The position numbers were made by a program, and so were the translations under genes. From Allomyces macrogynus ATCC 38327 (lineage: Eukaryota > Blastocladiomycota > Blastocladiomycetes > Blastocladiales > Blastocladiaceae), in assembly GCA_000151295.1 (NCBI GenBank), contig GG745328.1:332381-396380 (forward strand): a stretch of DNA of 64,000 bases, read 5' to 3'. Positions 5,755-55,622 of this stretch are shown here, one piece after another. The stretch's first letter is position 1. Every line of letters starts with the position of its first letter. The notes beneath the pieces were generated by a model. That model did not search any database and was not told where the DNA came from. It saw nothing but the letters and a program-made list of their open reading frames with translations.

Positions 5755-6115
5755 GAATGCTCGTGGTCGGTGACCCACGCGTCCTTGGGCTCGTGATGGA
5801 TCCAAAACGGCAGCTGCTGGTTCATGGCGTCGGCGCGCGTTTCGAAAATATGCGTGTGCCAAACAGTGTCGAGGAAAATGCTTGGCGAGAGCAAGACCAC
5901 ATTGCTGTCGTTGTGCACAACCTTGAGAACCAGAAACCAGCGGTACTCGTGAACGGCTAAGTCGACGTCAGCAGCAGGAAGAGACGCATGAGGGCCGTTG
6001 CGCAGGCTAATAGCAAGCGAGTCCAAATCGAGGTTGTGCTCGAGAAAGCGGGCTGCAGCATCGGTACTGGTCAGCAGAGGCGGCAGGTCAGCATCCTGAG
6101 GCTTGGCAGTCGCTG
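5755..6115 (-). pseudogene. WHxH-Ubl family fragment
   Basis: Minus-strand translation gives 'LLTSTDAAARFLEHNLDLD', then 'VDLAVHEYRWFLVLKVVHND', 'LLSPSIFLDTVWHTHIFETR' and 'MNQQLPFWIHHEPKDAWV'. It is very close to the intact paralogue at 8702-9637 ('AIHEYRRFLVLKVVHND', 'AVWHTHILDTRAY'). Homology stops abruptly near 5760, where the paralogue continues with the RWGEPP motif and the ubiquitin-like part. Here it runs into the TTTTCCA minisatellite region instead. Two signature residues differ (LDT to FET, Tyr to Asp). No start codon fits the N-terminal part. I read it as a truncated copy. Confidence 0.8.
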
Positions 6116-6159
6116 TGTGGCGAACTGTGGGCAGAAGTCGTCAACATTCCCCCATTGAT

Positions 6160-7610
6160 TCAGCAGCTCTCTCTCTCTCGAAACTGCTTTTGGACTTGTA
6201 AGAAGTGGAAGAGGACCGCATGCTTGAGCTGCTCAACGACCATTTGCTGCCAACACTTGTTGAATTGACATTGCTCACCAGCGATCTCACACCTGAAGCT
6301 GAAGATTTTGGGCAGGTCCTCTGGTTGCAGGTGCAGGAGCAAGGCCTCCAAACTCGCTAGCTTTGCATCCCCTGTCAGGTCCGCCATGCCCTTGGGTGCC
6401 ATGGACAGGGCCACCAGATTCAGTATCCTCAGGACCAATTCCACGTCTGACAGGGTGAAATGCTCTCTGGGATCCATCTGCAACCAACGCGCAATGCAAT
6501 CCATTTTCCAAAGACTTTGCCCTAGTTGCTAACCAAACAACGGTTTGCATCTGTAGAAATGGTGCAATGATCCAATATATTCAAATTGCGATCCATCAGC
6601 AACAGGGGCAGCACCACTAAACTCAGGGCCTTGGCGCGCACTTTGTCCACCTTGGGGTGGTCAGCAGGTACACAATGCAATGCAACCTGGTCAGATGGGT
6701 TATGTCTGCTGCTTCAAAGTGCGCCTTGGCCTGGACCGTGCCGACCACAGCATCGAGCATGGCCAGCACATCAGCCTGGTTGTCCACATTGAGCTTTAAG
6801 AGGGCCACCTCCTGGAGGAGCGCAGCAAGGACCTCCAGGCAAGATGCCACTGTGATAGTGCCACACATCTGGGTCATCAAGCACTTGGTCATGTCCATGA
6901 GCAGCCTGTCTTGCTCAGCACCTGCCCACTCTTGGCATCTTCTGACTTGTTGAGGGGGCCAAACACGTTGGTGGGGCACAAAACCCCATCACCATCAGGG
7001 CAGGCAATGGCATTGCACAGCATGTCTGGTACACGCATCTTGCTGCTGTCGTCCCGCTTCAGTGGGTTCTTAGAAGCAGCTGATGAACTGGCCATTGACA
7101 TGGCATCATGTTGGTGTGTGTTGCAGTGGTCTGCCCCCACCACGTGCGCCAGGGCGTGCACCACAGCAGGCGGGGCGGCCAAGTGGCCTCCACTGTGGTC
7201 TCCACTGCAGCCGCTGCAATGTGGGCAACATTGCTGGCCATCAGCATGTCATTTCCACGACCCACAGGAGCGTCATGCATGGGGTGGGGCTTGTCTGCAA
7301 CCGCCAAAGCGTGCGCGACAGCGCCTGCGCAGGGAGCGCCAGGGCGGACCTGCTCCAGCACCTCACTGCCGGCCACCCCCCTATCCAGGACAGGCAGGGC
7401 TGGTTCAACGTTGGGGACACCCGGGAACTGTCCACCAACAACCGGAATGGCGTCATCAATGTCATTTTTGAGCATTGTCACGCTTGGGAACGTGCTGAAC
7501 TCGATTGCCCACTGGTGTCGACCGAAAAGAAGGAGTGAGGATGCTGACAGGTTGAGGGCAAGGGGTTTGCACACCTCGACTGGGCTCAGGCAGTCAAGCC
7601 TGCTTTTCAT
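6160..7610 (-). mobile_element. Degraded repetitive unit with minus-strand ORF remnants
   Basis: Broken minus-strand frames look protein-like but are not recognised. They include 6160-6504 (helical, 'LVLRILNLVALSMAPKGM'), 6623-6979 ('EVLAALLQEVALLKLNVDNQ', 'AMLDAVVGTVQAKAHFEAAD'), 6889-7182 and the 7059-7610 frame ('DIDDAIPVVGGQFPGVPNVE'). They follow one another in different frames, as in a mutated coding region. The right end (7561-7740) matches repeated DNA at 38.4-38.9 kb, next to a tyrosine-recombinase fragment, which is why I call this a mobile-element remnant. No catalytic domain is visible, and which strand originally coded is uncertain. Confidence 0.45.
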
Positions 7611-7740: not shown

Positions 7741-7823
7741 CCACAAAGCTTTCCCCACCTGCGTTTCGATCCAAACCAACCTACCTGGGACAGGTCGAAT
7801 GACTTCCCGCGAACTGTGGATCG

Positions 7824-8300: not shown

Positions 8301-8301
8301 G

Positions 8302-8701: not shown

Positions 8702-9637
8702 TCAGGACCATCCATCACTTTGCCATTTCAAATCAAAATGGATGATGTTGCGCACCATACATCCGCGCCCAAGCAACAACATCAACATCAACCCCAACAA
8801 GAGCAACGTTGGCAACGCCAAGATCAAGAGCTTGAGCCGAGCAATCATATCCGAGGGGAACGCCTTGAGTTTGATGGGTTTGCCCGTCAGGGTCTTGATG
8901 GAGATTTGCATCGTCAGTTTGGCTGGAACATGACCGTCACGGTCAGGGCTTTGGGGGAGCAACTGGATCGACATTGAGGAGGCAGCAGGCAGCACAGCAG
9001 GTCCAAGCAATGACGCAGTTGCAGCGCACACTTCATCCCAAACCATCGCGGGCGGCTCCCCCCACCGCATACGGTAGCACGCGAGTGTGTTTTCAAGGCG
9101 ACATGTATAATCCACGCGGTCGGCAACCCATGCGCCTTTGGGCTCGTGATGGATCCAGAACGGGAGCTGCTGATTCATGGCCAAGTAAGCGCGCGTGTCA
9201 AGAATGTGTGTGTGCCAAACAGCGTCGATGATGGCGCTTGGCGAGAGCAAGACGGCATGGCCATCGTTGTGCACGACCTTGAGAACCAGAAACCGGCGAT
9301 ACTCGTGAATAGCAAAGTCGATTTGGTCGGCAGGAACAGGAGCGTGCAGGTCGTCGCGCAAATTGGCTGCGAGCGCGTCCAGGTCGAGGTCGTGCTCGAG
9401 AAAGTGAATGGCAGCATCAGTGCTGGTCAGCAGCGAATCACTGCCAACTTGCGGCAAAGAGTGCACGCTCCCTGATTCCACGGTCCGGGCGGGGTCGATG
9501 GAATTGGTCGTGGTTGCGTCTGCATGCAGCGACTGCTGATTCAACATGATCGCGGGCGGGCCGCTGAAATGGGCAAAGACAAGTGACAAGGAGAGGACAG
9601 ACGGTATCAGCGCTACACGCAGCTGTCGGAAGCACAT
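8702..9637 (-). CDS. WHxH-Ubl family protein with truncated ubiquitin-like segment and hydrophobic tail
   Basis: The start at 9637 gives 311 residues; an alternative start is the Met at 9547. The N-terminus 'MCFRQLRVALIPSVLSLSLV' could be a signal peptide or membrane anchor. A WHxH module follows: 'FLEHDLDLDALAANL', 'FAIHEYRRFLVLKVVHND', 'LLSPSAIIDAVWHTHILDTR', 'MNQQLPFWIHHEPKGAW', 'CYRMRWGEPPAMVWDE'. After a linker comes 'MQISIKTLTGKPIKLKAFPS', strikingly like the N-terminus of ubiquitin. Instead of completing the fold it runs into a Leu-rich stretch ('LALPTLLLLGLMLMLLLG') and stops. Either this is a real C-terminal membrane anchor or a mutation destroyed the beta-grasp fold. The frame continues upstream to 10093 without domain content. 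Function is unknown. The module resembles plant GRDP/DUF1399 repeats. Confidence 0.65.
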   Translation of the reverse strand: MCFRQLRVALIPSVLSLSLVFAHFSGPPAIMLNQQSLHADATTTNSIDPARTVESGSVHSLPQVGSDSLLTSTDAAIHFLEHDLDLDALAANLRDDLHAPVPADQIDFAIHEYRRFLVLKVVHNDGHAVLLSPSAIIDAVWHTHILDTRAYLAMNQQLPFWIHHEPKGAWVADRVDYTCRLENTLACYRMRWGEPPAMVWDEVCAATASLLGPAVLPAASSMSIQLLPQSPDRDGHVPAKLTMQISIKTLTGKPIKLKAFPSDMIARLKLLILALPTLLLLGLMLMLLLGRGCMVRNIIHFDLKWQSDGWS

Positions 9638-10184: not shown

Positions 10185-10640
10185 GTGGCCGCCAAGAAAG
10201 TGACTCAGGCCGCAATACAGGCCGCGACCGATCGTGCCGTCCACTTTTTCGTACACGATCTCGACCTGACTTCGCTTGCCGAGCACCTACGTCGCTCTCC
10301 GGCTCCGCCCGCCGACATTGACCTCGCGCTGCGCGAGTACCGCCGGGACCTGACTCTCAAGGTCGTGCACCGTGACGAACACGCGACGCTGCTCTCGCCG
10401 AGTCTACAAGTCGGCGCCGCCTGGCACGCGCACGTGCTCGACACGCGGTCGTTCAAGGCCATGAACGACGCCTGCCGCTCTTCATCCACCACGACCCGCG
10501 CGGGCGTACGACCAGGACGCAGCCAATCGCCCGCGTCGGCTCGAGAACACGCACGCGTTCTACCGCGCGCGGTGGGGCAACTTGCCCACGGCCATGTGGG
10601 ACGACGGGCAGGTTCATCCAAGCCGCACTCGTTCGTTGTC
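10185..10640 (+). pseudogene. WHxH-Ubl family copy broken by two frameshifts
   Basis: The plus strand reads 'TQAAIQAATDRAVHFFVHDL', 'PPADIDLALREYRRDLTLKV', 'LLSPSLQVGAAWHAHVLDTR' and 'FKAMNDA'. Then a shift is needed for 'LPLFIHHDPRG' (near 10468) and another for 'AYDQDAANRPRRLENTHAFY' and 'RARWGNLPTAMWDDG' (near 10505-10600). No in-frame ATG fits the start, and no ubiquitin-like part follows. The nearest relative is the copy at 42.7-43.9 kb, which shares 'EIQAATDAAVRFL' and an equally broken C-terminal half. The repeated single-base losses in GC runs may be decay or sequence error. Confidence 0.7.
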
Positions 10641-11723: not shown

Positions 11724-11901
11724 CCGTTCGGCCGGGCTCGGATACCCGGAGGGTATCCGTCGCGCCAGCCTCGGCGTCCATGATCGTGAGAGAGGCGCCG
11801 TCTTCGGCGCTACAGACCTTTATTTGTGTGAACAAAAAACACTGAAAATGTGATCAACGTAAATAAAGGCGTCCACTCCCACCTCCAGAGAACCTCGCCT
11901 C
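11724..11901 (+). repeat. Left terminus: outer edge plus inverted terminal repeat
   Basis: 11779-11901 is an exact inverted copy of 16254-16376 (123 bp). The outer 11724-11790 pairs with the internal complementary region. A small palindrome (GGATACCCGGAGGGTATCC) lies at 11740-11758. Confidence 0.92.
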
Positions 11902-11969
11902 CTCGAAAAGCCGCTGCAGACTGCACGACACCGTCCTGGGGGCCGATCTTCGTTCGCTTGCACCGCACC

Positions 11970-12968
11970 ATGAACGTCAACCCCCCCAATGACCCCGCCG
12001 CCGTCCTCGCAGCCGCCCGCGCGGACATCGCGGCCAACCCCGACGGCCCACTCGCTCAGCTCCTCGCCGCTGCACTCGCTCTTGCGGGGCCTGGCGACGG
12101 AGCCGCCCCTCCCCCCGCATATCAGACGCCCTGGCCGTGGCGCGATGCCCCGCCGGCCCCCCTCGTCGTCGACGATGACGCTGACGGTGGCCGCTACACC
12201 GTCGAAGGCGCCCCTGCAGAGATCCTCGGCAGGTCCGCCCTCTCGTTCCGGGGCAGGTCGTCCGACGTCCTCCGACACTACCCCCGCCCCAACGGTAGCG
12301 TCGACCAGGCCTCGCGGCTCGACGCCGCCCTCGTCGAGGCCGCTTCCAGGGCCAAGACCGGAGAGACTGTCAAGCAGCGCGACGACCGCGACCGCAAGCA
12401 TCAGGAGTACCTTGGTCACGTCATCCGCGCGCTCGTGCCACTCGTGCACTTGTTGCACGTTGTCGACCACGAGCTCAACCTCGACGACCCCGAGCACGGA
12501 CCCGAGCGCATCGCCGCAGACGCCGGCCGCTTGCGCACGGTCGTCCGGGACGCCCGCACCGCTGCCGTCGACGCCCTCAAGCTCACCGTCATCGGCAACG
12601 GTTCCATCGAACGCGCCCGCCGAGACGCGGTCATCAAGGACCTCAAGCTCGGCGAAGTCTTTGCCCAGCGCGCCAACGTTCCCAGCACCGACCGCGCCCT
12701 CCTGTTCGGCCCCGACGCCTTCCGCGAAGAGTTTGCCGAGCTCAACCGACGCCGCGACATGGAGCGTGTCGCTGGCGTCGCTGCCGCCGCCGCCGCCGCG
12801 GCCCGTCCCGCTCGCGTACCGGGAAACGGTCGTGGCCACGGTGCCCGCGGCGCAGGGGGCTACCGTGGCGGACGCGGCCGCGGTCGTGGTGGCACCTGCG
12901 CCAATGGCCAGCGGCGCGACCAGCCGCGGGCCGATGCCGACAACAACCGGGACGCCAACCGCGTCTGA
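11970..12968 (+). CDS. Gag-like ORF1 of the DIRS element
   Basis: It encodes 332 residues from the ATG at 11970; the frame is open upstream to 11850 through the terminal repeat. The N-terminal half is Ala/Pro-rich. The middle is predicted helical ('KHQEYLGHVIRALVPLVHLL', 'DALKLTVIGNGSIERARRDA', 'FREEFAELNRRRDMERVAG'). The C-terminus ends in an RGG-box-like Gly/Arg tail ('RGAGGYRGGRGRGRGG') rather than a CCHC zinc knuckle. Position and the nucleic-acid-binding tail support a Gag role; there is no direct sequence signature for capsid. It presumably packages element RNA. Confidence 0.75.
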   Translation: MNVNPPNDPAAVLAAARADIAANPDGPLAQLLAAALALAGPGDGAAPPPAYQTPWPWRDAPPAPLVVDDDADGGRYTVEGAPAEILGRSALSFRGRSSDVLRHYPRPNGSVDQASRLDAALVEAASRAKTGETVKQRDDRDRKHQEYLGHVIRALVPLVHLLHVVDHELNLDDPEHGPERIAADAGRLRTVVRDARTAAVDALKLTVIGNGSIERARRDAVIKDLKLGEVFAQRANVPSTDRALLFGPDAFREEFAELNRRRDMERVAGVAAAAAAAARPARVPGNGRGHGARGAGGYRGGRGRGRGGTCANGQRRDQPRADADNNRDANRV

Positions 12969-13076
12969 AGGCGCCGGCGTCCCCGGAGACGACGCCATGG
13001 ATGTCGACGTCGTCCCCGATTTGGCCCACCGCGCCTGGGTGGCCAGACGTCCTCGCGCGCGGACACTTGGGCCTCG

Positions 13077-14914
13077 ATGGTCCGCGACGCGGAATCCTTG
13101 CGTTCGGTACGGCGTGGGGCCACGATCGACTTTATCCAGTCGCCGCGGCCCAACCTGACGCTCCGCCCGTTCAGGCTCCCGGAGGCCGACCGGGCGGTCA
13201 TAGACAAGGAGGTCTCGGATTTGCTGGCCCGTCGCTGCATCGAGCCGACCACCGAGCCAGCCATGCTCATGAACCCTTTCACGGTCGTCCAGCCCTCGGG
13301 CAAGATCCGGACCTGCTTCGATGCGAGACCTCTCAACCAGTTCGTCCGATTGCGTCGCTTCAAGATGTCGGGGATCTCGACCGTGCGCCATCTGATCCGT
13401 TGTGGCGACTACTTCGTGCGCCTCGACCTGAAGGACGCCTATCACTCGGTTCGCCTCGCGCCAGAAGTGCGGAGGTTTTGTTGTTTTCGGTGGAACGGGC
13501 AATTCTACCGTTTCACTGTACTCTTCTTTGGACTCAGTTCGGCGCCCCAGATCTTCTCGCGCCTCATGTCGTCAGCCCTGGCGCCCCTGGTCTCGTCGGG
13601 GATGCGCCTTGTGGCGTATCTGGACGACGTCCTCCTGCTCTGCTCGTCGCGCGAGGAGGCACTCCGTCAGCGCGACCAGTTGATTTCGCACCTCGGCTCA
13701 CTTGGTTTCACGGTAGGCCTGGCCAAGTCCCAGCTGGAGCCGAGTACGACGACGACCTTCCTCGGCTTCTCGATATGCTCCATATCGATGACCATCTCGG
13801 TCCCGCGCGACAAGGTCCGCAAGGTGTCCCGCGAGGCCAAGCGCTTGCTCCACTCGGTCTCGTCCACGCCGCGCAAGCTGGCCCAGTTCCTTGGCCTGGC
13901 CAACTCGCTGGCCCCGGCGGTGGCCCCGGCCGGGATCCAGCAGCGGTTCCTCCAGCGCAACCTGCACCATGGCCTGCGCCCGGGCCGCACGTGGGAGTGC
14001 CCGGTCCCGATCATGCAAGCGTCCCGCACGGAGCTCTCNNNNNNNNNNNNNNNNNNNNNNNNNNNNNNNNNNNNNNNNNNNNNNNNNNNNNNNNNNNNNN
14101 NNNNNNNNNNNNNNNNNNNNNNNNNNNNNNNNNNNNNNNNNNNNNNNNNNNNNNNNNNNNNCCGCGGGTGGTGGACCCGCCGCGAGTCCGACATGGGCTC
14201 GAACTGGCGCGAACTCAGGACGATCGAGATCGCGATCCGCTAAACCTGTCGGCTTGGGCCGGCCGGACGGTACTGATACGAACCGACAACATCACGGCCA
14301 GCTGCTACGTGAATCGCCAGGGCGGTCACGCGTCGACGCACCTGCTGGACCTGGCCAAGTCGATCTGGCACCTGTGCATGTGTCACCGGATCGACCTGCG
14401 CGCCCAGTATCTCCCGGGCGAGCTCAACACGGCGGCGGATCGAGCCTCCCGGTCGATGGACAACCACCGGTACGGACTGACGGACCGCGGGTTCCGGCGG
14501 TTGGAGGAGTGGTTTGGTCCGCGGACCCTGGACCTGTTCGCAGATCGCACGAACGCTCGGTGCCCTCGTTTTTGGTCGCTGCATCCAGACCCCGACGCGG
14601 ACGCGGTCGACGCCTTCGCGCAGACGGCATGGCCCCGGCGGGGCGGCTACGCCTTCCCGCCCCCGATGCTGATCCCTCGGGTGCTGCACTGTGTGTGCGC
14701 GCACTGGGTCAACGAGCTGGTCCTGGCGACACCGGCGTGGTACTCAGCGGCTTGGATGCCGCTGGTCCGACGCCTGGCGCGCGCGGAGCCTCTTTGGCTT
14801 CCACCATCGGCGGCGTGGACCCCGCGCTTCCACTCTCACCGCGTGCTGCCCTCCTCGCGCGGGATCCTCTTGTGGCGCGTATCCTGGAGGGGCTCGCCAC
14901 CTCCTCGGGTCTGA
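13077..14914 (+). CDS. Reverse transcriptase / RNase H ORF of the DIRS element (gap and frame break)
   Basis: The RT part (frame starting by 13077) shows 'MNPFTVVQPSGKIRTCFDAR', 'LNQFV', 'RLDLKDAYHSVRLAPEV', 'FTVLFFGLSSAPQIFSRLM' and the catalytic 'LVAYLDDVLLL', then 'LGFSI' and the thumb. The N run (14039-14161) removes the start of RNase H. After it come 'SNWRELRTIEIAIR' and, one frame over, 'TVLIRTDNITASCYVNRQGG', 'STHLLDLAKSIWHLC' and 'LRAQYLPGELNTAADRASR' (RNase H core DxxTxxxYxNxxGG and D-R). A single missing base near 14240 explains the in-frame stop at 14241-14243. The remainder to 14914 is the linker before the recombinase. The copy is probably recent but inactive as assembled. Confidence 0.88.
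14039..14161. other. Assembly gap (123 N)
   Basis: This run of N lies within the RT to RNase H junction of the DIRS element. Its true length is unknown, so any frame relation across it is provisional. Confidence 0.99.
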
Positions 14915-16335: not shown

Positions 16336-16379
16336 AGGTCTGTAGCGCCGAAGACGGCGCCTCTCTCACGATCATGTCC
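16254..16379 (+). repeat. Right inverted terminal repeat of the DIRS element
   Basis: 16254-16376 is the inverted copy of 11779-11901. It contains AATAAA at about 16330 on the plus strand, a possible polyadenylation signal for element transcripts. Confidence 0.92.
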
Positions 16380-27211: not shown

Positions 27212-28570
27212 TCAGCAAAACCCGGTCGACGGCGCTCTTCCACCACCACCCGGCGGGATCGACCAGTGCGCGGGCGGCCACGTCGTCGCCGTCGTGAGCC
27301 CTAATGACGACGCGACCGGTCGCTGAAAAGCGAACCCCATTGCCGCCGTCGTCGCTGATTCCGGCCACATCCCCGTCGGTGCCCCGACCTGCCCCCCCTG
27401 CACGCGCGGCGGTGCCTCCCGCAACACGACCGTGGCCCCGCTCTCGATCCCACACTCGCTCAGCGTCCACTCCGGCCCATCAAGCTTCCACCCAAGGTAC
27501 GTGAGCCGCTGCGCTGCCAGCGGGACCACGCGCTCGCGGTATATCCCCCACATCAAGTCGCGCACCGTCGCGTTTGGGTCCATGACGAGGTCAAGCGCCG
27601 GCGTGCCGGGACTTGCTATGTGGATCCGGAGCTTGGCCGCTGACGGGCCGAATGGCCGGTCGCGGTCGCGCGGCGGCGACGTCGGAGTTGGCGGAAGCGA
27701 GACGGGACTCAGCGGGAGTGGCGGGTCGGCGTACGGCGCCCAAATGGCCGCGGGCGGGTCGGTCCCAAACTGCGCGCGGTACAGGTCGGCCGTGATGGCG
27801 AGTTCCGCAGTGCGGTCACGTAGAGTCGGGTCGTGGTGGGGGAAAAAGGGCAGGTGGGAACACATGCCCGCGTAGGCGCGGGTGTCGAGAACATGCGCGG
27901 CCCAGACGGCCCCGACCAAGGGGCTCGGCGCGAGGAGCGTGTCGTTGACGTCGCTCGCGAGGACCTTGAGGGCGATGAACCGGCGGTACTCGCGCACGGC
28001 GTGCGGGACCAGCGTGGGCGAGGGCAGCTCGGGTGGCGGGAACCGGTACAGGTGCGCGGCGAGCGGCACGAGGTCGAGGTAACGGTCAAGAAACTCGTGC
28101 GCTGTCGTCATGGCGGGGAGCACGTCGAGGGTGCGGTTCGGGCCCGGTGGTGGGAAGGGTGCGGGTGCTGCGATGGATGCAGAGGTTGGGTCGACGGCCC
28201 AGATATTGCCGATAGGTTCCTCGCCGAACCGCGCGCGGTACGTGGCGAGCGTGGCGGCACGGCGGTGTGCGCGGGATGCTGGGTCGAATGCGCCCGCCGG
28301 GTCGTGGTGGATGAAGAAGGGCAGTTTGGCGCACATGGCCGCGTAGGCCTTGGTGTCGAGAATGTGTGCGTGCCAGAACTGGTCGATGGCGGGCCTCGGC
28401 GAGAGGAGGAGCGCGTTGCTGTCGTGGTGTAGGACCTTGAGCGCGAGGAATCGCTGGTACTCACGCAACAGAAGGCCCGACGCGCCCGTGCGCACGGCAA
28501 TGCGGTCCAGGCCGAGGTCCGCGTCGAGAACGATGACAGCCGCGTCTTGGAGGGGTGGAGCGCTGGTCAT
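27212..28570 (-). CDS. WHxH-Ubl protein with two WHxH modules and a C-terminal ubiquitin-like domain
   Basis: 452 residues from the ATG at 28570, an intact single frame. Module 1 (about 35-125): 'LLLREYQRFLALKVLHHD', 'LLSPRPAIDQFWHAHILDTK', 'CAKLPFFIHHDPAGAFD', 'YRARFGEEPIGNIW'. Module 2 (about 190-280): 'AVREYRRFIALKVLASD', 'LLAPSPLVGAVWAAHVLDTR', 'SHLPFFPHHDP', 'YRAQFGTDPPAAIW', where the first His of WHxH is Ala. Residues 312-386 form a ubiquitin-like beta-grasp domain ('AKLRIHIASPG', 'LDLVMDPNATVRDLMWGIY', 'LTYLGWKLDGPEWTLSECGI', 'SGATVVLRE'). The Pro/Gly-rich tail has no GG end, so it is not a conjugatable ubiquitin. A TTTAAATAT box lies about 140 bp upstream. The module resembles plant GRDP/DUF1399. 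Role unknown; a ubiquitin-mimicking adaptor is conceivable. Confidence 0.85.
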   Translation of the reverse strand: MTSAPPLQDAAVIVLDADLGLDRIAVRTGASGLLLREYQRFLALKVLHHDSNALLLSPRPAIDQFWHAHILDTKAYAAMCAKLPFFIHHDPAGAFDPASRAHRRAATLATYRARFGEEPIGNIWAVDPTSASIAAPAPFPPPGPNRTLDVLPAMTTAHEFLDRYLDLVPLAAHLYRFPPPELPSPTLVPHAVREYRRFIALKVLASDVNDTLLAPSPLVGAVWAAHVLDTRAYAGMCSHLPFFPHHDPTLRDRTAELAITADLYRAQFGTDPPAAIWAPYADPPLPLSPVSLPPTPTSPPRDRDRPFGPSAAKLRIHIASPGTPALDLVMDPNATVRDLMWGIYRERVVPLAAQRLTYLGWKLDGPEWTLSECGIESGATVVLREAPPRVQGGQVGAPTGMWPESATTAAMGFAFQRPVASSLGLTTATTWPPAHWSIPPGGGGRAPSTGFC

Positions 28571-29404
28571 GGAGGCTATCACGGCGTTCCTGCGGTTTGG
28601 TCGATACGCGTGTCGTCGGCCAAGAGGTGGCGGTGGGGCCGATGCAGTGCAGCGAGTCGGAGCGGGGCGAGGTGGCGGTGGTGCGCTCAGTCCTGCGTGC
28701 CGGACATGGAGATTTAAATATCGTCGACGTTTTCGGCGTGGTTGGCTCATCCCTTGCGGTGCGCTGTACGCAACTTGAAGCTGGCCACGTCCCAACGCGA
28801 ACGTGCTTGGGCGGACTGCCTGTGCGCGGTGCCTTCGAGTCACTGGGTCCTCTGCCACGCAGCCCACGGCGGTCCGCGGCTGTCTGTCTCCACGCCATGG
28901 TCGGTCGGCCGCCGTCAGGGCGAGCTGCGCGGAGCGAATGCAGCAAGTTGTCGTGCGTCATGATCTTGTGGTACCAGCATTAGTACTGACCAGCTATCGA
29001 CGGTGTCGTGACGTCGATGGGTTGGCAACAGGCCACGTCCACGCAGCAGATAAATTGCGTGACGCGGACACGCACACTTTGTGGATCAGGACGCCTGTCG
29101 ACACGGCACCTGCTTCGAGAGCTACGAGAGCCTGAGAGAGCAGCGATCAGCCAGCGGCCCAGCAACTATGGCGAACCAGCGAGGCACCGACGAGCCGAAA
29201 TGTGAAATGTGATCAGGCCACATCACAGATGGAACCGTTTCTGCCTGACCTCGGTTATGTGGAACACTTGTCGGCCGTCTCCAATTTTTCTCGCTCGACC
29301 ATCCACCCGCGACCCTGTCACGACCCAGTCGCAAGTCGTAACCAGTAACCAAGCTCAAACGCGCCATTTCTTCTTCTCGCACATCAGCAAGACCTCTCGG
29401 CAGC

Positions 29405-35629: not shown

Positions 35630-36559
35630 TCACTGTCCGTCGTCGCCGTCATCCTCGCCATCGCGTCGAGTCGCTTCGGCCAGCAGCACGTCGTCGTCCA
35701 CGAGCCCGATCGCCATGAGTTTGACGTTATCAGCGAGCCGTTCTCCGTTGGGCGCCGTGAACTGCATGCTCGCCGCGTCGTAGGGCCACCGGTCGGCAAT
35801 CGCGGCCTTGACTTTGCCAACCGTCGTGTTGGGGCCGATAATGAACTCGATATCTTTGTCCTCTTGCAGGAAGCGCACACGGAACCGCAGCTTTTTGCCG
35901 GTAGTATCCTGCGCGGGCTTGGATTGCGATTGCGATTGCGGTGCCGCTGTTGCTGGTGGTGGACGCGGCGTAGGCGGTGACAGCAGCGGTGGGTCCCACA
36001 CGGATTTCGGCGGATCGCCCCACCGCGTGCGGTAGTACTCGCGCGACGTGGCAAGATGCCGTGCGCGCTCGGCCGTGTCGTTTGTGCTGGAGAGCTTGTG
36101 GTGCAAAAAGAAGGGGAGCCGCGCGTTCATGGCCGCGTAGGCTTGCGTGTCGAGAATGTGCAAGTGCCAAACGAGCGCAATAGGTGGTGGTGCAGCGAGA
36201 ATCGTTGCAAATTCATCCTTGTAGGCGACCTTCAAGAGCAGGAAGCGCCGGTACTCGTGCAGGACCAGGTCCACGCCGGGTATCGACGGGTGCCGCGCAT
36301 GCTTGAGCGACGAGGCAAGAGCGGATAGGTCGAGGTCTCTTTCGAGGAACTGGGCAGTGGCCGGGTCGACGGGCGGTAATCGTGGTGCTGGTCGAGCGGC
36401 GTTGCCGTTGCATGGCTGGCTTGGTGGTGCAGGTGGTGTTGCACGTGGTGCAGGAATCGATGGCGAACCGGCTGGTACAGCGTCGGGGCCATTGCGCGCG
36501 ACCGCTGCGGGCCGTTTGCGGGAGGTGGTACGCCTTGAGGACGAGGTGGTGCCGGGCAT
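35630..36559 (-). CDS. WHxH-Ubl family protein (intact, one module plus ubiquitin-like domain)
   Basis: 309 residues from the ATG at 36559, a single frame. The Pro/Ala-rich, basic N-terminus (1-60) includes 'SRRTTSRKRPAAVAR', a possible nuclear signal. The WHxH module spans about 68-190: 'AQFLERDLDLSALASSL', 'DLVLHEYRRFLLLKVAYKD', 'PIALVWHLHILDTQAY' (WHLH at 131-134), 'MNARLPFFLHH', 'YYRTRWGDPPKSVWDPP'. A Gln/Ser linker is followed by a ubiquitin-like domain at 223-298 ('KLRFRVRFLQEDKDIEFIIG', 'TTVGKVKAAIADRWPY', 'MQFTAPNGERLADNVKL', 'GLVDDDVLLAEA'). The ending is acidic with no di-glycine. This is the cleanest example of the family's basic plan. Confidence 0.87.
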   Translation of the reverse strand: MPGTTSSSRRTTSRKRPAAVARNGPDAVPAGSPSIPAPRATPPAPPSQPCNGNAARPAPRLPPVDPATAQFLERDLDLSALASSLKHARHPSIPGVDLVLHEYRRFLLLKVAYKDEFATILAAPPPIALVWHLHILDTQAYAAMNARLPFFLHHKLSSTNDTAERARHLATSREYYRTRWGDPPKSVWDPPLLSPPTPRPPPATAAPQSQSQSKPAQDTTGKKLRFRVRFLQEDKDIEFIIGPNTTVGKVKAAIADRWPYDAASMQFTAPNGERLADNVKLMAIGLVDDDVLLAEATRRDGEDDGDDGQ

Positions 36560-42689: not shown

Positions 42690-43893
42690 TCAGCACCCCA
42701 CCTGCTCGTACGCGACATCAATCACATGCGGCCCCTCGTCGGCGTGGCATCCGCACTCGGCCAGCGTCAGCGGCAAGTCCAGCCGCTCGCCATCAACAGA
42801 GAGCCGCGAGTTTGGCCATCTCCACGTTGAACCGAGCCGCAAACGCTGCAGCGACCACATCCACCCGTATCGACTCACCCACACGAACGCGATACTCCGG
42901 CGTCGTGGCGTCCCAAGAAACCAGCACCACCTCCATTGTCTCGGAATTAGCCGCCGCCGCCGCCGCCGCCGCCAGATACTGGACCAGCGTGCGCGACGAC
43001 GCGCGCGTGTCGCGGCACGCCGGCCAAGCGGGCTTGGCGTCGTCCCACATGGCCGCGGGCAAGTCGCCCCACCGCACGCGGTAACGCGCGGGTGTTCTCA
43101 AACCGGCGCACGCGGTTGTTTGCGTCCTCGTCGTACGCGCCGTTCGGATCGTGGTGAATATGCAGCGGCAGCGCGTCGGTCATGACTATGTACGACTGTG
43201 TGTCGAGCACGTGTGCGTACCAAACCGCGCCAACCTGCGCGCTCGTCGCGGTGCACGACCTTGAGAACGAGAAACCAGCGGTACTCGCGCAGAGCGAGAT
43301 CCATGTCGGCAGGCGGCTTAGGTGCGCGCTGGAGGTGCTTGGCGAGCGCGGTCAAGTCGGGGTCGTGCTCGAGAAAGCGCACGGCCGCGTCCGTCGCGGC
43401 CTGGATCTCGGCGCGGGATGCGCGCTTGGGCTCGGCCGGCGGCGCCGGGACATTAGCTTGACGGTTGGCGGGAGAAGATACGGCAGGTGGACGCGCGTGG
43501 GAGTCATTGGCGACCGGGCCGGCCGCGCGTGCGCGCTGGCAGGCTGCAGCTGCACTTGCGAGGGCGCCGGAATCGTATAGTACGACGAGAACCACGACGG
43601 CAGCGGCAGCGATGGGGCCTGCCGCACGACGCAAAACAGCGTGGATGCTGCGCTCGCGGTGGCCAAGACTCGGACGGGTACGGAAGAGCGTAGGCGACGC
43701 GACCACGCGCTACACGTCGCCGTGCTTGAACTGGGCGACGAAGATGCTGCAGCAGCGTGCCAGTACTGGTAGAGTGCGCCAGCGGCCACCACGAGCCGTC
43801 GTGCGACCTCGCGTTGGCCATTGGCTTCGCGTACGGATGCACGCACGACAGGGCGGCGCGCGACGGCTGGTGCTGTTGCAGAGTCGAGTCCAT
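42690..43893 (-). pseudogene. WHxH-Ubl family copy with several frameshifts
   Basis: Reading down the minus strand, the N-terminal Met is at 43893 ('MDSTLQQHQPSRAALSCVHP'). A likely membrane helix ('GPIAAAAVVVLVVLYDSGAL') follows in another frame at about 43.6 kb. Then come 'EIQAATDAAVRFLEHDPDLT' and 'DMDLALREYRWFLVLKVVHR', a shift, 'QVGAVWYAHVLDTQSY', 'DALPLHIHHDPNGAYDEDAN', a shift, 'RYRVRWGDLPAAMWDDA', and a ubiquitin-like segment ('MEVVLVSWDATTPEYRVRVG', then after another shift 'SRLSVDGERLDLPLTLAECG'). Order is preserved and no large deletion is seen except near the LLSPS strand, so decay is young or the sequence here is poor. Confidence 0.72.
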
Positions 43894-44144: not shown

Positions 44145-44858
44145 TCAGCACCCGCGCAACTTCGACATGTCAATGACGTGCACGACCGCACCATCCTCAA
44201 TGCCGCACTCCTCGAGCGTCCAATGCTCCTCGCACCACTTGCCGTTATACAAGAGCGAGTGGCACGCCTTCCCAATCCCAACCTCGGGGTTACGGTCGCC
44301 TCGGGCCGGCTCGAAATGTCCTTCATGCTCAAACAAAATAAGTCAACTCGGCCGAGCCCGTCCACCGACCAAGTCGTGGTACATTTCGTGCAGGCGCGCG
44401 ACCGTGTCCGTCGGCCGCACGTCCAGTACGTCCATTCGGCCCTCGTCACCCCAAGCCGAGACCTGGAACGCGCCGGGCGGTCCACGACGGAAATTGGTTG
44501 GCCGCGACCGGGTGCTCCAGTAAGTACTGGGCGGGTCAGCGTGCCACCGTGCACGGTACAACGTGAGCGTGCTGCTCCTGCGGCGCGCGAGATTCGCAGC
44601 GTCGTTCCAACGTGTATCCTTGGAGTTGCGGTGGATAAAGAAGGGCAGCTTGGCACACATGGCCGTGTAGGATTGGGTGTCGAGCAGGTGCACGCGCCAG
44701 GCAAAGTCGATGAACGGACTCGGCGACAGCAAGATAGCGTCGGCGTCGCTGTGAACCACCTTGAGGACCAAGAACCGGCGGTACTCGTGGAGAAGTCCCG
44801 AGATTCCGTGATCGTGCAGTGGGCAGCGCGAGTCGTGTGAATTGACCGGAGCGGGCAC
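44145..44858 (-). CDS. WHxH-Ubl family protein with intron in the ubiquitin-like domain
   Basis: Exon 1 from 44858 carries 'GLLHEYRRFLVLKVVHSD', 'LLSPSPFIDFAWRVHLLDTQ' (first His replaced by Arg), 'MCAKLPFFIHRNSKDTRW', 'LYRARWHADPPSTYW' and the first half of a ubiquitin-like fold ('RMDVLDVRPTDTVARLHEMY'). An in-frame TGA is removed if 44369-44283 (87 nt, GT...AG, CGTAAC branch-like) is an intron. This gives 'HDLVGIGKACHSLLYNGKWC' and 'WTLEECGIEDGAVVHVIDM' to the stop at 44145. The donor GTCGGT is weak. The N-terminus is short. A frame at 45065-44865 ('MDPVHGG', acidic stretch, 'TPKRRAI') may be an upstream exon. Confidence 0.62.
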
Positions 44859-46216: not shown

Positions 46217-46223
46217 TATAAAA
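46217..46223 (+). promoter_or_regulatory. TATA box (TATAAAA) of the third transporter
   Basis: TATAAAA about 410 bp before the ATG, followed by a CT-rich stretch with (TC)n at 46330-46341. It is a plausible core promoter with a long leader. Confidence 0.55.
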
Positions 46224-46458
46224 CCGCGCCGCCCCCGCACCCTTCGTCCTTGCTATTCGGTCTACTCCAAATCTCCGACTGCCCTCGGCAAGCATCCATC
46301 CTCACCTCTACATCTTCAAGCGCGCGCCCTCTCTCTCTCTCTCCACCGCCGCGCCGCACCGCACCTCATCTCTCTCACCTTCACGCACTCTCCACGGCCG
46401 CCGCTCGCGCGCCGGATCTCGTCTGACAAGTCACCGGTGAGAGCGCCATCCGCTCGCT

Positions 46459-46477
46459 CCCCCCCCCCCCCCCCCCC
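46459..46477. repeat. C19 homopolymer
   Basis: A run of 19 C in the presumed 5' leader of the third transporter, about 150 nt before its ATG. Confidence 0.85.
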
Positions 46478-46628
46478 ACATTCTCCGCAACCGACCGACG
46501 TGCGCCGCCGCCGACGCGTGTCCGCCTTCTCTTCCGTCACCCACAACCGCCCCCACCGGCGCGAATCCGCAAGTGCGAGATCCGCACCCGTCCCGGCACC
46601 CATTCATCCATCCACCACCGCCGTCACT

Positions 46629-49389: not shown

Positions 49390-49745
49390 TGCATGGACCG
49401 CGGGAATCGACTTGATCTCGCTCGCCGGACGGCTCCGTCGCCTGCCCACCCTACTAACCGAGATCGATGTACCGGCGAGACATGGCGCTGCGCGTCGTGT
49501 ACCGCGACGAGAACGGGACGCTGCTTGCGCCGAGCGCCACGGTCGAGAACGTCTGGCGCGTACATGTGTTGCATACGCGCGGGTGCGCGGCGATGAATCG
49601 CGCGTTTCCGAGCTTTGTACTGTATGCCGAGGATGGGGATGAGGATGAGGAGGACCGGTGGGGTGAGCCGCCGGTGGCGATCTGGGGCGAGAAGTCAAGG
49701 GGTGCGGTGCAGCGTCGGCGCCGCTGGATTGCGGGCGACGGCTGA
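49390..49745 (+). pseudogene. WHxH-Ubl family copy, broken
   Basis: 'GIDLISLAGRLRRLPTLLTE' and 'IDV' match 'GIDLNSLATRLRWLPNSPAD' of the next gene. A frame change and small deletion remove the 'LLLREY' helix. Frame two then reads 'YRRDMALRVVYRDENGTLLA', 'ATVENVWRVHVLHTRGCAAM', 'FPSFVLYAEDGDEDEEDRWG', 'EPPVAIWGEK' and stops soon after. There is no ubiquitin-like part. It is the first member of a four-copy head-to-tail array reaching 55.6 kb. Confidence 0.7.
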
Positions 49746-50127: not shown

Positions 50128-50239
50128 CTTACCATTGCGGCAGCCGTCGCTCTAATAAATTCGTCAATCCAATCTGGCAACCGCTTCTCTCTCTCGTGCA
50201 CACCAAGCAAACCGTCCAACTGTGATTGATTGCACGAAT
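50128..50239 (+). promoter_or_regulatory. Upstream block duplicated before the two array genes (copy 1)
   Basis: From 'TTTTCTGAGGC' through 'AATAAATTCGTCAAT' and 'CTTCTCTCTC' to 'TGATTGATTGCA' just before the ATG. The same blocks in the same order precede the 53048 gene (52931-53047). It marks the shared promoter and leader of the duplicated pair. Confidence 0.6.
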
Positions 50240-51829
50240 ATGTCCTCAAACCGTTCCCCCAGCCAAGACTCGCCGCTGCACGCCGCGGCCGCAGAGAACC
50301 CAACGGCCACGACGAACCCGTCCAAGTCAACGACGGGCCTTTCACTTACACCCAGGGATATTAGTGTCCTTCATCGTCGTCCCGGCGCTCGTCGTCCTGA
50401 ATCGAGCATTCCTCTTTCCATTATTGGCCCGACTCCCTGTGTGACATCCGGCCTTCCGTCTCGTCCACCTCCCCGTCGTGACTCTCCACCACCGCCGCCA
50501 CCGCTCCATGACCACCTCCATCAATATCGCGCCTCCATGGCGGGCCGCTTGGGTGCTGGACCTCGCTACCATCCGTATTCGACGACCTCACGTCCAACAG
50601 CAGCGGCAGGACCATCATCTGCGACGTCCCGTGCCATGCCAAATTCGGGCGCGACACTGTACTATGCGGGCCTATCGTCGACCGAACAATATTTGCGCGC
50701 GTCCCTTCCGCGCGGGCCAACTGGTCCACCCCCACCACCACCTGCAGCATCAGGTCCGTCATACGCGACGTTCCGCGCCGTGCCGGATTCGGACACGAAA
50801 CCATACTATACGGACCTGTCGTCGACAGAACAGTATTTGCGCGAATACCTTTCAAGCGGTCCGACCGTTCCTACCCCACCACCTCCTCCGCCACCCTACC
50901 CGGCATTTTTCTCTCCGCCGTCGCCACCTCAACTGCCGCTGGCCCACCACGCGGCAGACCCAGAGGCGAGCGGGGCGTTCGGTGCCGCGTTCGGTGCCGC
51001 GTTTGGTGCCGCCGGGTTCGGCCGCACGGCACCGCCCGTCACCGACCCCACCACGGCACAGAACCGCGCCGACCCTGCATGGCCCGTTGGAATCGACTTG
51101 AACTCTCTCGCAACGCGGTTGCGTTGGTTGCCAAACTCACCAGCTGACGTGGACTTGCTTCTGCGCGAGTACCAGCGGTATCTGCAGTTGCGTGTCGCGC
51201 ACCGCGACGAGGACGGGTCGCTGCTCGCGCCGAGTCCCACGATTGAGCGCGTCTGGCGCGCGCACGTGCTGGATACGCGCGGGTACGCGGCAATGAACCG
51301 CATGTTGCCGTTTTTCGTGCATTACGCTGAGGAGGAACGCGGTGGAGAGGGGCGCGCACGTCGCGTCGCGAATATCCGCTGGAGTTACCGCGCGCGGTGG
51401 GGCGAGCCGCCCGCAGAGATTTGGGACGACGACGGCGGTGCCGCGCCAACAGCGGCAGCAGCTCCGGCGGCGTCTGTTCGACCTTTTCCACCCGCTGGAC
51501 CGGCCGCGCCCCCGCCATCATCAACGGCGGCTGTCCCGCTGCACACCGCGCCGGCCCCACCGCCCCCGACGGCCGACCACCATGACACGGCGTTTGATCT
51601 CGTGGTGCTGACGCTCTCAACGGGCCAGGAAACGGTGCTTCGTGTGCATGCATCCGACACGGTGCAGATTGTCCAGCAGCAGTATGCGACGCTGTCGAAC
51701 AACCTTGGCCGCGTGATCATGTTTCAGCTCCACGGGGAGATGTTGCCGTTCTGGGCGACCTTGGCGCAATGTGGAGTTGAAGCGCGGGCGGGGCGCATGA
51801 CGATTGAAGCGAGCAGTCGTGCGCCGTGA
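50240..51829 (+). CDS. WHxH-Ubl family protein with long Pro-rich, internally repeated N-terminus
   Basis: 529 residues from the ATG at 50240. Residues 1-280 are low-complexity and Pro-rich, with an internal repeat of about 27 residues ('SSATSRAMPNSGATLYYAGL' at 127 and 'SYATFRAVPDSDTKPYYTDL' at 174, both followed by 'SSTEQYLR') and a short 'FGAA' repeat. The WHxH module spans about 284-395: 'GIDLNSLATRLRWLP', 'DVDLLLREYQRYLQLRVAHR', 'LLAPSPTIERVWRAHVLDTR', 'MNRMLPFFVHYAEEE', 'YRARWGEPPAEIWDDD'; the first His is Arg. After a second Pro linker comes a ubiquitin-like domain (about 450-525: 'FDLVVLTLSTGQETVLRVHA', 'VQIVQQQYATL', 'GRVIMFQLHGEMLPFWATLA'). It is an intact single exon and the tandem partner of the next gene. 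Confidence 0.85.
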   Translation: MSSNRSPSQDSPLHAAAAENPTATTNPSKSTTGLSLTPRDISVLHRRPGARRPESSIPLSIIGPTPCVTSGLPSRPPPRRDSPPPPPPLHDHLHQYRASMAGRLGAGPRYHPYSTTSRPTAAAGPSSATSRAMPNSGATLYYAGLSSTEQYLRASLPRGPTGPPPPPPAASGPSYATFRAVPDSDTKPYYTDLSSTEQYLREYLSSGPTVPTPPPPPPPYPAFFSPPSPPQLPLAHHAADPEASGAFGAAFGAAFGAAGFGRTAPPVTDPTTAQNRADPAWPVGIDLNSLATRLRWLPNSPADVDLLLREYQRYLQLRVAHRDEDGSLLAPSPTIERVWRAHVLDTRGYAAMNRMLPFFVHYAEEERGGEGRARRVANIRWSYRARWGEPPAEIWDDDGGAAPTAAAAPAASVRPFPPAGPAAPPPSSTAAVPLHTAPAPPPPTADHHDTAFDLVVLTLSTGQETVLRVHASDTVQIVQQQYATLSNNLGRVIMFQLHGEMLPFWATLAQCGVEARAGRMTIEASSRAP

Positions 51830-53047: not shown

Positions 53048-54481
53048 ATGTCGTCAAACCGTTCCCGCTACCAGGGCTCACCGCCGCACGAGTCCGCGGA
53101 CATTTCCGACCACGAAGGCGTCCATGCCAGTAACGGGCCAGACCTTTTGTCCCAAGCTGTCGGGCCATCTTCAAGTGCCACCTCTCGTCGTCCTGGTGGT
53201 CCGGCTCAACGTTCCGACAGTCGCCCTCACATCCGCGTTACTCGGCCCTGCGACTGTCCGGCCAATACGTCTCGTCCGATTCCCCGACAAGTTTCCCCAC
53301 CTTCATCGCCTCCATTTCATTCCCCTTTCCAGCAGTTTGATGCCGTTTTGGCAGACCAAATGGCCGCTGCAAGTCGGTCCCAAGCTCTGAACATGAAGAC
53401 CTCATTCGCAGCAGCGCCCGCAGTGTCTCGCTCCGTGCCAAATTATACGACTCTGTCTTCGCTTGACTCGTCATCGATTGCGTATCATCTTCGGTACAGA
53501 CCTCGCGAACCACTTGGGAATGCGACCGGTCCGCCCCCACCACTACCACCGTCCTATATCGATTATGCAACATTGTATTACACACCATTTCAACCTCTAC
53601 CTCCACCCATATTCCCTGTGGCGGGCACGAGCGCGAGTACTACATGCGGAACCACGTTCGGCCGTATGACTCCATTTGTAACTGCTCCCGCCGCAACTGC
53701 GAGCCGCGTGACCACTGAATGGCCTACCGGAATCGACATGACCTCCCTGGCCGCACGACTCCGCCGCCTTCTCACGCCGCCGGTCAACGTTGACCTCCTT
53801 CTGTGCGAGTACCAGCGGTTCCTGCAACTGCGTGTTGCGCACCGTGATGAGGACGGGACGCTGCTCGCGCCAAGTGCGGCGATTGAGCGCGTCTGCCGCA
53901 CGCACGTGCTGGATACGCGCGGGTACGCGGCAATGAACCGCATGTTGCCGTTTTTCGTGCATTACGCAGACGAGGAAGAGGGAGGTGAGGATCATCGGAG
54001 GCGAATGGCGAATACGCTCGTGTTGTATCGCGCGCGGTGGGGCGAGCCGCCAACAGAAGTCTGGAACGATGATGAAGCCCGCGCACTGATGGCTGCGGCT
54101 CTGGCGGTGCCTTTGCGACCTTCTCCACCCGCTGGAACGGCTGTGTCGACACTACCAACCCCACCGTCGTCGACCGCACCGGCCCCACCGCCCCCAGCTG
54201 CCGCCCGCGACGCGATGTTTGACCTGGTGGTGTTGTCTGAACCCCCTACCACCGAGGAAATTGTCCTGCGCGTGTGCGAGTCCGATATGGTCCACAGCAT
54301 TATGGTGCAATATGAGACATTGCGTAACGCGCCAGTCGGTGTGACCATGTTGTGGTTCCGCGGGAAAGTTCTGCCGTTCTGGGAAACGTTGGCACAGTGT
54401 GAGATTCATGCGTGGATGGGGCGCGTGTGTGTCTATGCGCGCCGCTTCGTGCTGCGGCGTGTGGGGGATGAGATGGGGTAA
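53048..54481 (+). CDS. WHxH-Ubl family protein, tandem paralogue
   Basis: 477 residues, a single frame. It starts 'MSSNRSRYQGSPPHESADIS', like the preceding gene. The Pro/Ser-rich N-terminal 230 residues are rearranged relative to the partner, with one 'LSSLDSSSIAYHLR' unit. Module: 'GIDMTSLAARLRRLLTPP', 'NVDLLLCEYQRFLQLRVAHR', 'LLAPSAAIERVCRTHVLDTR', 'MNRMLPFFVHYADEEE', 'YRARWGEPPTEVWNDD'. The conserved Trp and first His of the signature are Cys and Arg here. The ubiquitin-like domain is 'MFDLVVLSEPPTTEEIVLRV', 'VHSIMVQYETLRNAPVGVTM', 'LWFRGKVLPFWETLAQCEIH'. It is probably functional as a protein, but any metal-binding role of the WHxH motif would be lost. Confidence 0.85.
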   Translation: MSSNRSRYQGSPPHESADISDHEGVHASNGPDLLSQAVGPSSSATSRRPGGPAQRSDSRPHIRVTRPCDCPANTSRPIPRQVSPPSSPPFHSPFQQFDAVLADQMAAASRSQALNMKTSFAAAPAVSRSVPNYTTLSSLDSSSIAYHLRYRPREPLGNATGPPPPLPPSYIDYATLYYTPFQPLPPPIFPVAGTSASTTCGTTFGRMTPFVTAPAATASRVTTEWPTGIDMTSLAARLRRLLTPPVNVDLLLCEYQRFLQLRVAHRDEDGTLLAPSAAIERVCRTHVLDTRGYAAMNRMLPFFVHYADEEEGGEDHRRRMANTLVLYRARWGEPPTEVWNDDEARALMAAALAVPLRPSPPAGTAVSTLPTPPSSTAPAPPPPAAARDAMFDLVVLSEPPTTEEIVLRVCESDMVHSIMVQYETLRNAPVGVTMLWFRGKVLPFWETLAQCEIHAWMGRVCVYARRFVLRRVGDEMG

Positions 54482-54774
54482 TAGAGATGGGCGGGAAGGT
54501 CGGCGATGGGCTGTTGGCCGCCGGGTTTTGTAGGTGGGCGGGATCGCAGGAAGAACTAGTTGCTGCGTTACGGGGCAGGAATCAATGATACGGAAAACGC
54601 GTCTTTCGGCGTTACGCGTCAGGTTTTTTGATCTGTCAGTTGATTCTCAAAGCGCAACTTTGCCAACATCTCACCATTCGCAATGCATCGAGCTCAAGGG
54701 CGCGCGAGACCGACGACCCGAACCGCGAGCGGCGGCGGGAAAACACGCGCGCGTGCTACTATGCGCCGTACGGC

Positions 54775-55622
54775 ATGACCATTTTCGTCAAGGGGCTCCG
54801 TGGCCAGACCGACACGCTGTATGTGATGTTGACCGACTCGTTGAACCGCGTCGAGGGCGGGTACCAGCTGAAGTTCGCGGGCAAGCAGCTGCAGGGAGAA
54901 GTGTCAGTGGTCGACGCGGGGATTTGCAAGGACAGCATGACACGCGCGTGTATTCCGCCCCTGATTCGCGAGTATCGGCGGTTCCTGGCCCTCAAGTTTG
55001 TGCACCGCGACGCCGACGCGCTGCTCCTGTCGCCAAGCCCGCTCATTGATGTTGTCTGGCACGCACACGTTCTCGACACCAAGTCCTACGTGACCATGTG
55101 CGCCAAGCTGCCCTTCTTCATCCACCACAAACCCAAGGGCGCGCGCGACGCCGAATCGCAGATCCGCGACGCGCGCCGACGAAAAATACTCGCGTGCTAC
55201 CGCGCGCGGTACTGCTGTGACAAACTGGTTCACTGTAATTGCAAGGACCAGGCAGAGCGCACGAATCCACGTTCTGGGTGGTGGGGCAATCGGTCCTGTG
55301 AGCCAACCATACTGTTTTGGTCGAATGAGATCCAATGTCGCGGCAAGGATAAGGAAAGGGAGAGCGATCGTGGGGGTCGCACCTTGTGGACCATGCCCGT
55401 CCTCGTCAAGGGTTCTGGAACGAGATCAACACGTTGTGCGTGCGGCCGACCGAATCAATGGACAGGCTCTGGGAACTGTGCGGAGAGAAAGTGAGTTGCC
55501 CCAAGGATATGCTACGACTGCGTTTTGGCATGTGGGAGCTGGAACCGGGTGAGTCATCGGTGTTCGAAGTGTGGATCAAGCCGCACTCCACGACGTTTGC
55601 CGCTGTCCGGTTCCAACCATGA
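54775..55622 (+). CDS. WHxH family protein with N-terminal ubiquitin-like domain
   Basis: From the Met at 54775, 'MTIFVKGLRGQTDTLYVMLT' and 'GYQLKFAGKQLQ' copy the ubiquitin core (ubiquitin has MQIFVK...FAGKQLE) but with the middle shortened. Then comes the module: 'IPPLIREYRRFLALKFVHRD', 'LLSPSPLIDVVWHAHVLDTK', 'MCAKLPFFIHHKPKGARD', 'ILACYRARY'. The frame runs on to 55494 without further similarity. A second ubiquitin-like segment ('NEINTLCVRPTESMDRLWEL', 'MLRLRFGMWELEPGESS') lies at 55386-55622 in another frame. A GGTACTG donor-like site follows CYRAR at about 55208, so an intron from about 55210 to the CAAG near 55410 could join the two. Exon structure is tentative, and a frameshifted copy is the alternative. 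Confidence 0.6.

Follow-up and report, generated by a model that had tools for sequence, protein, structure and literature searches.

What is the gene family that recurs, in whole and broken copies, along a 64,000-nucleotide stretch of the Allomyces macrogynus ATCC 38327 genome, and what were its proteins assembled from? This stretch, hereafter the window, is contig GG745328.1, positions 332,381 to 396,380 (G000:C75:332381-396380 of the 54-Mb assembly). An earlier, sequence-only reading saw in it eleven loci joining a module like that of plant glycine-rich-domain proteins (GRDP, DUF1399) to ubiquitin-like domains. We found that the proteins of the open copies consist of a helical head of about 130 residues belonging to the PF27765/GRDP clan, a linker often rich in proline, and a ubiquitin-derived domain at the C-terminus. 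The window copies all belong to a single family that has expanded in tandem, and many of them are broken.

A head profile of 58 sequences, which include four of the 12 window modules, was run on the six-frame fragments of the window. It recovered exactly the eleven loci of the earlier reading, with 12 head modules. The best piece at each locus scored between E 5e-43 and 2e-12, and no match appeared in the reversed window or in five codon-shuffled windows. Head profiles made from Allomyces only and from bacteria only each detected the sequences of the other group. The copies, with tails placed by a tail profile, are as follows.

27212..28867, minus strand: open two-module gene; heads 27737-28105 and 28196-28474, tail 27413-27631; the protein ends ...GFC
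35630..36559, minus strand: open gene of 309 residues (P0001); head 35993-36367, tail 35672-35890, acidic C-terminus
50222..51829, plus strand: open gene with a long proline-rich N-terminus; head 51062-51427, tail 51593-51811
53048..54481, plus strand: tandem sister of 50222; head 53723-54067 with cysteine for the motif tryptophan, tail 54218-54439
8702..9529, minus strand: open head (9032-9418) whose tail starts (8819-8911) and then leaves the frame
5736..6062, minus strand: partial head, no tail found
10227..10602, plus strand: head in two frames (10227-10472 and 10483-10602), no tail found
42726..43394, minus strand: head in two frames (43242-43394 and 43082-43252), weak tail trace at 42726-42809
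44172..44819, minus strand: head (44514-44819) with separate tail pieces at 44364-44441 (weak) and 44172-44258
49467..49640, plus strand: head fragment, seen with the head profile
54868..55212, plus strand: head (54934-55212) with a weak ubiquitin-like trace (54868-54939) upstream in the same frame

The five motifs that had been described as shared by all copies stand where they were placed, but not every copy has each of them. With slightly loosened patterns, the EYRRFL-type and LLSPS-type motifs were each present at 10 of the 11 loci, W-H-x-H-x-L-D-T-x-x-Y at seven and LPFF or LPFW at eight; strict RWG.PP was found at five. Missing motifs fall mostly in copies that look decayed, the exception being the open copy at 53.9 kb with its cysteine for tryptophan. 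When frames were read from unspliced genomic DNA, four loci (27212, 35630, 50222 and 53048) had an unbroken head-plus-tail frame. Each of the remaining seven has either a head that is incomplete or lies in two frames, or a tail that is cut short or was not found. The 8702..9529 copy is probably decayed, an intron being the alternative. The statement that most copies carry a beta-grasp domain holds only loosely: full-length tails lie at four loci (27.4, 35.7, 51.6 and 54.2 kb, all four in the training set of the tail profile), clear remnants at two (8.8 kb, E 1e-5; 44.2 kb, E 3e-4) and weak traces at two (42.7 kb, E 0.04; 54.9 kb, E 0.15), and the tail profile found none at the remaining three.

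With seven of eleven loci lacking a complete frame, the array might consist of decaying duplicates that have no present function and are heading to loss. Selection on homeologous pairs and relatives of the 35630 gene, both set out below, make this very unlikely. A search with the 35630 protein gave at least 31 matches (16 on C75, 14 on C57 and one on C40), in agreement with the earlier idea of an expanded family of short fungal proteins. Grouped by hand, these make 29 loci (15, 13 and one, respectively), 28 of them in two clusters and 11 in the window. To judge by three gene pairs that align over their full length, the clusters on C75 and C57 appear to be homeologous. An unbroken head-plus-tail frame was present in 10 of the 29 loci, namely the four in the window, C75:321k, C75:322k, C57:208k, C57:264k, C57:291k and C57:304k. 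At an eleventh, C57:258k, the head is cut at its start, yet the locus is annotated as a 233-residue protein, P0010. The annotated A. macrogynus ATCC 38327 proteins P0004, P0005, P0006, P0007 and P0008 are identical to paralogs in the genome, and family proteins bear the database names 'hypothetical protein' and 'Ubiquitin-like domain-'. The full-length 35630 query returned Allomyces proteins only, perhaps through proline-rich words, whereas a query with the head region reached wider relatives. Three Allomyces species have relatives of the 35630 gene: A. javanicus and A. arbusculus each contain one, A. macrogynus has the homeolog, and all are 81-82% identical to it.

The ratio of nonsynonymous to synonymous substitution (dN/dS, Nei-Gojobori, pairwise averages that single selected sites could escape) was 0.19 between 35630 and its homeolog, 0.17 between C75:321k and C57:264k and 0.28 between the two-module gene 27212 and its homeolog (C57:290874-292544); for the tandem pair 50222/53048 it was 0.39. 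The range of 0.17-0.28 in the three homeologous pairs indicates purifying selection, and at least those copies are therefore maintained. Tandem arrays, frequent decay and divergent tails and linkers would also suit a family for recognition or defence that evolves fast and diversifies in both head and tail. We consider this hardly probable at all, as the homeolog ratios are low in the heads and in two of the three tails; the third, that of 27212, is less constrained (0.47).

Several comparisons indicate the origin of the tail. Six paralogs exceed the cut-off of the ubiquitin profile PF00240 (25.4 bits; E 4.3e-21 to 1.9e-7), and L019, the two-module homeolog at C57:290874-292544, exceeds the cut-offs of both PF00240 and PF07173. 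The genome as a whole has 30 ubiquitin matches, and 11 of these fall inside the two clusters. In a model of the L013 paralog (mean predicted local distance difference test score, pLDDT, 73; predicted template modelling score, pTM, 0.48) the beta-grasp is confident, and Foldseek returned ubiquitin as its top match (E 1.3e-9). Profile comparison with hhalign gave the tail pair 50222+53048 a probability of 89% against ubiquitin, and the best match of these tails among PDB sequences was polyubiquitin (6.5e-5). The matches of the 35630-type tails among PDB sequences were weak (best E 0.05) and for the most part were to SUMO and further ubiquitin-like proteins. Identity to an Allomyces ubiquitin repeat was 53-64% in four of the five tails compared and 21% in the fifth. 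To judge from these similarities the beta-grasp tail is a diverged ubiquitin, so that the ubiquitin-like character read from the letters alone was borne out. The tail shares the beta-grasp with ubiquitin and with integral ubiquitin-like domains; it lies at the C-terminus of its protein and ends in cysteine or in unrelated residues.

This end distinguishes the fusions from ubiquitin. A conjugatable C-terminal Gly-Gly is absent from the fusion tails, which finish in GC, FC, LC or unrelated residues and hence would not be conjugated by the usual route. Three near-ubiquitin Allomyces tails end in cysteine (P0005, IRLTGC; P0006, LVLKFC; P0012, LVLRLC), two additional partial copies end ...TGC and ...KFC, and the two-module genes end GFC after an extension of the tail. 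The tails of all six environmental proteins with the same fusion (see below) end RLRGC or RLKGC. Terminal cysteine is missing in the diverged tails P0001-P0004 and P0007-P0009. The last residue of polyubiquitin was considered as the source of the cysteine and discarded, the three Allomyces polyubiquitin genes that were read ending LRLRGGQ.

As to function, we infer that the protein may be a ubiquitin adaptor that cannot be conjugated and that in its original form presented a thiol, a reading we favour tentatively and rate somewhat short of an even chance. A simpler possibility is a plain integral ubiquitin-like adaptor of the Rad23 type, whose tail docks the ligand of the head to the proteasome or p97 and whose terminal cysteine is incidental. 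The 35630 tail, strongly constrained (dN/dS 0.09) while lacking the cysteine, speaks for it, and Rad23 is the sole NCBIfam match of L013, P0016 and P0017, over the ubiquitin-like part and far below the cut-off. However, the cysteine recurs in six of six environmental fusions and in three annotated Allomyces proteins, and known shuttle proteins usually carry their ubiquitin-like domain at the N-terminus. On balance we regard the plain adaptor as rather unlikely, if deserving of serious attention.

The head was modelled as all-helical (pLDDT 93.6, pTM 0.89). All 58 heads have Y43, L49, W71, H74, D77, T78 and Y81, and nearly all have E42, R45, H72 and H94. Foldseek and VIA-align returned no clear solved relative of the head and its profile gave chance-level matches to PDB sequences (best E 0.015); the absence of a solved relative does not establish a new fold. 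The proposed resemblance to GRDP/DUF1399 proteins was right as to the clan, but the relatives that proved closest in our searches were not plant GRDPs; they were PF27765 proteins of prokaryotic type and the N-terminal parts of TIGR04222 membrane proteins. The PF27765 proteins, mostly bacterial, about 165 residues long and named 'glycine-rich domain-containing protein', share the head, with EYRRFL, WHAHILDTRAY, HH and FG..P in order and 23-36% identity to that of 35630. They carry short cysteine-containing tails where the Allomyces fusions have ubiquitin. In the precomputed PF27765 listing we found the 27212 gene (P0011, in a 512-residue form) and its paralogs P0005-P0009; P0001 (35630) and P0010 are unlisted. 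The TIGR04222 membrane proteins P0020 and P0069 likewise combine an N-terminal head with a cysteine-containing C-terminus, and TIGR04222 proteins have in addition a membrane region. The TIGR04222 profile matches these two bacterial proteins and neither of the two Allomyces proteins scanned, L013 and L019.

Profile scores measure these relationships. A profile of 10 Allomyces heads gave a median of 53.5 bits on 81 open reading frames (ORFs) at GTDB loci, which were chosen by motif patterns (best 80 of 119) and thus sample the family at its more similar end. It gave 59 bits on five TIGR04222-type proteins (two verified as TIGR04222), 58 bits on six environmental fusions and 52.6 bits on one viral-contig protein. 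At the GRDP loci of Allomyces itself the same profile matched five of eight, with a median of 17.6 bits, and the other three were not matched. By these scores the head is much nearer to PF27765 proteins of prokaryotic type than to the organism's own GRDP proteins. The bacteria-only head profile does match the Allomyces GRDP proteins (best 7e-8), so the homology to the GRDP-like/DUF1399 group (PF07173; plant AtGRDP1/2 and the Allomyces GRDPs) is real but remote. With the PF07173 profile, none of nine window ORFs scanned, from nine of the eleven loci, reached the cut-off of 22.7 bits (best 18.8). In another scan of nine proteins (eight paralogs and the 8.7-kb window gene) only L019 did, with 25.0 bits, and the similarity lies consistently around profile positions 95-141. 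Plant PF07173 members are described as having a glycine-rich C-terminal domain and an RNP-1-like motif, and the C-terminal region of AtGRDP2, with the consensus [CG]GGGCGG[GC], contains cysteine too (PMC4299439). The C-terminus of the open Allomyces copies is ubiquitin-like.

In a head tree of 80 rows, the eukaryotic family, with 22 rows from Allomyces and six environmental ones (28 in total), lies on one side of a branch, and the GRDP rows sit apart on a long branch. The six environmental rows do not form one group, and the long row P0016 falls inside Allomyces, its position unsure. A clade of Allomyces alone was not rejected by the approximately unbiased (AU) test (p 0.464). The presence of the same head-ubiquitin fusion in the six environmental proteins carries the family beyond Allomyces and beyond what the window had suggested. 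Our literature searches, with subscription journals mostly outside them, showed no paper on this fusion, as the sequence-only reading had supposed. In our view it is likely that the head was acquired by transfer from a prokaryote and that the fusion took place once. Descent of the head from the Allomyces GRDP proteins is disfavoured by the profile scores, yet it is not rejected by the tree. A viral origin of the environmental fusions was also considered and set aside, as a scan of viral contigs matched ubiquitin alone six times and the head alone once. Viral contigs do hold head proteins with repeated cysteine or cysteine/glycine tails (L134:5797-6456; L143, L144). The head was matched in two of 50,697 phage records, and a bacterial head protein in 35 of 72,556 plasmid records (Azospirillum, Pseudomonas, Streptomyces, Cupriavidus and others).

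We analyzed the C-termini of 77 non-fused relatives, treated as prokaryotic (101 proteins minus 14 Allomyces proteins, six environmental fusions and four ubiquitin-only proteins). Cysteine occurs within the last 40 residues in 76 of the 77, with two or more in 69, and makes up 10.4% of these residues against 1.2% elsewhere. The same holds at the GTDB loci (80 of 81 ORFs, two or more in 78). Together with the cysteine ends of the fusions, these tails make a head plus C-terminal cysteine look like a conserved plan. At nine of the 80 GTDB loci (L081, L082, L084, L092, L094, L097, L099, L113 and L118), from Acidobacteriota, Myxococcota and Pseudomonadota, the head protein ends C..Q.CP and genes for a TauD-like oxygenase and a UvrA-like ATPase come after its own, seven of the nine also having a methyltransferase (the Pfam names of these neighbours being taken from one locus). 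This group looks like a biosynthetic cluster. No common enzyme was seen among the neighbours of 14 other GTDB loci inspected by eye. At 13 of the 80 loci, mostly in Pseudomonas and relatives (e.g. L050:5693-6004), the gene immediately upstream of that for the head protein is ParE-like; one such gene was scored and matched ParE_like at 4e-12.

The cysteine tails of nearly all non-fused relatives and the nine operon-like loci raise the possibility that the fusion is a cysteine carrier, its head being the recognition domain for a tail-modifying enzyme and its ubiquitin only a rigid support for a cysteine that is modified or binds metal. Some TIGR04222 proteins, the family to which two head proteins belong, are proposed in a published study as precursors modified by the bacterial enzyme MNIO; the study also reports that one third of TIGR04222-bearing genomes lack MNIO (PMC12452194). 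Against such a carrier, diverged members lack the cysteine, no enzyme was seen to neighbour the head gene at the majority of the 80 bacterial loci, and no partner enzyme was identified in Allomyces; the MNIO search (PF05114) gave no candidate in its genome, with the control positive in two of 14 genomes. The carrier thus seems doubtful, and more so than the plain adaptor. These two explanations divide between them the two roles, docking domain and thiol carrier, that the thiol-presenting adaptor joins.

According to the thiol-presenting adaptor, a head gene of prokaryote type would have been fused once to a ubiquitin unit, in a common ancestor of Allomyces and the environmental eukaryotes. The head may bind a small ligand or a partner through its invariant Tyr/Trp/His/Asp/Thr/Tyr surface, while the ubiquitin fold would dock, unconjugated, on ubiquitin receptors. 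In the original form the thiol of the terminal cysteine would have been the working end, as supposed for the cysteine tails of the prokaryotic relatives (a modification or metal site). Later copies such as 35630 and 50222 would have lost the cysteine and let the tail drift, keeping the fold. A neighbouring version, unlikely in our estimate, has a prokaryotic protein resembling a folded leader whose cysteine tail was replaced by a whole ubiquitin with its last glycine changed to cysteine. Such a thiol-ended ubiquitin would act by its terminal cysteine (modification, metal or thioester-like chemistry), not by conjugation, and would then have spread in tandem in Allomyces.

Several results weigh against the thiol-presenting adaptor and the history it assumes. 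The branch on which the fusion heads come together lacks strong support (91/86), and the AU test did not reject a clade of all eukaryotic heads including the GRDPs (p 0.226), which bears on the horizontal origin. The full window tails themselves fall below the PF00240 cut-off (27212, 1.7e-4; 35630, 0.012; 50222, 0.2; 53048, 0.0058), and the 35630-type tails compare weakly with ubiquitin in profile comparison (17%, E 0.0015 for one pair). Docking on receptors would follow from the fold and from residues 8, 44 and 70, which in the alignment are ubiquitin-like in some tails only. In a fourth near-ubiquitin tail, P0010, the cysteine is followed by three further residues, GRE. The tails of 35630, 50222, 53048, C75:321k and C57:264k end in residues other than cysteine; with several diverged tails lacking it, the cysteine is not essential for all members. 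The negative MNIO search counts here as well.

Other elements lie between the copies. Positions 11724-16393 hold a retroelement with a reverse transcriptase (RVT_1, 4.8e-21), an N run at 14039-14161 and inverted repeats (11762-11919 / 16236-16393, 92%; 11724-11791 / 15963-16030, 100%), a layout we take to be DIRS-like; a scan of one stretch gave no match to a recombinase. ORFs resembling leucine-rich repeat (LRR) proteins are at 17450-19216(-), 31298-33070(+) and 39664-41449(-), with LRR matches all sub-threshold and none in 40415-41449. An F-box identity for these genes was discarded, four scanned ORFs giving no F-box match up to E 0.1. Three related transporter genes of the major facilitator superfamily type occur at 20023-21933(-), 23664-25267(-) and 46026-48291(+), two above the Pfam cut-off and the third below it. 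Elsewhere in the genome, giant open frames of 6225, 6377, 3618 and 3638 residues (C74:835-854k, C68:1220-1230k, C73:549.7k on and C75:1631k on; L039-L047) carry repeated GRDP-like matches and cysteine-pair motifs. The C68 stretch contains an N run, and the first 2299 residues of the C75 frame match PF07173 at 1.2e-19.

In all, this family ties a widespread prokaryotic domain to the ubiquitin world. The cysteine at or near the C-terminus of the bacterial-type proteins, the viral-contig proteins and the eukaryotic fusions makes a role for the head domain testable. In Allomyces, ubiquitin appears to have been turned into a fixed, non-conjugated domain, and one genome holds copies of this tail that range from near-ubiquitin to barely recognisable.

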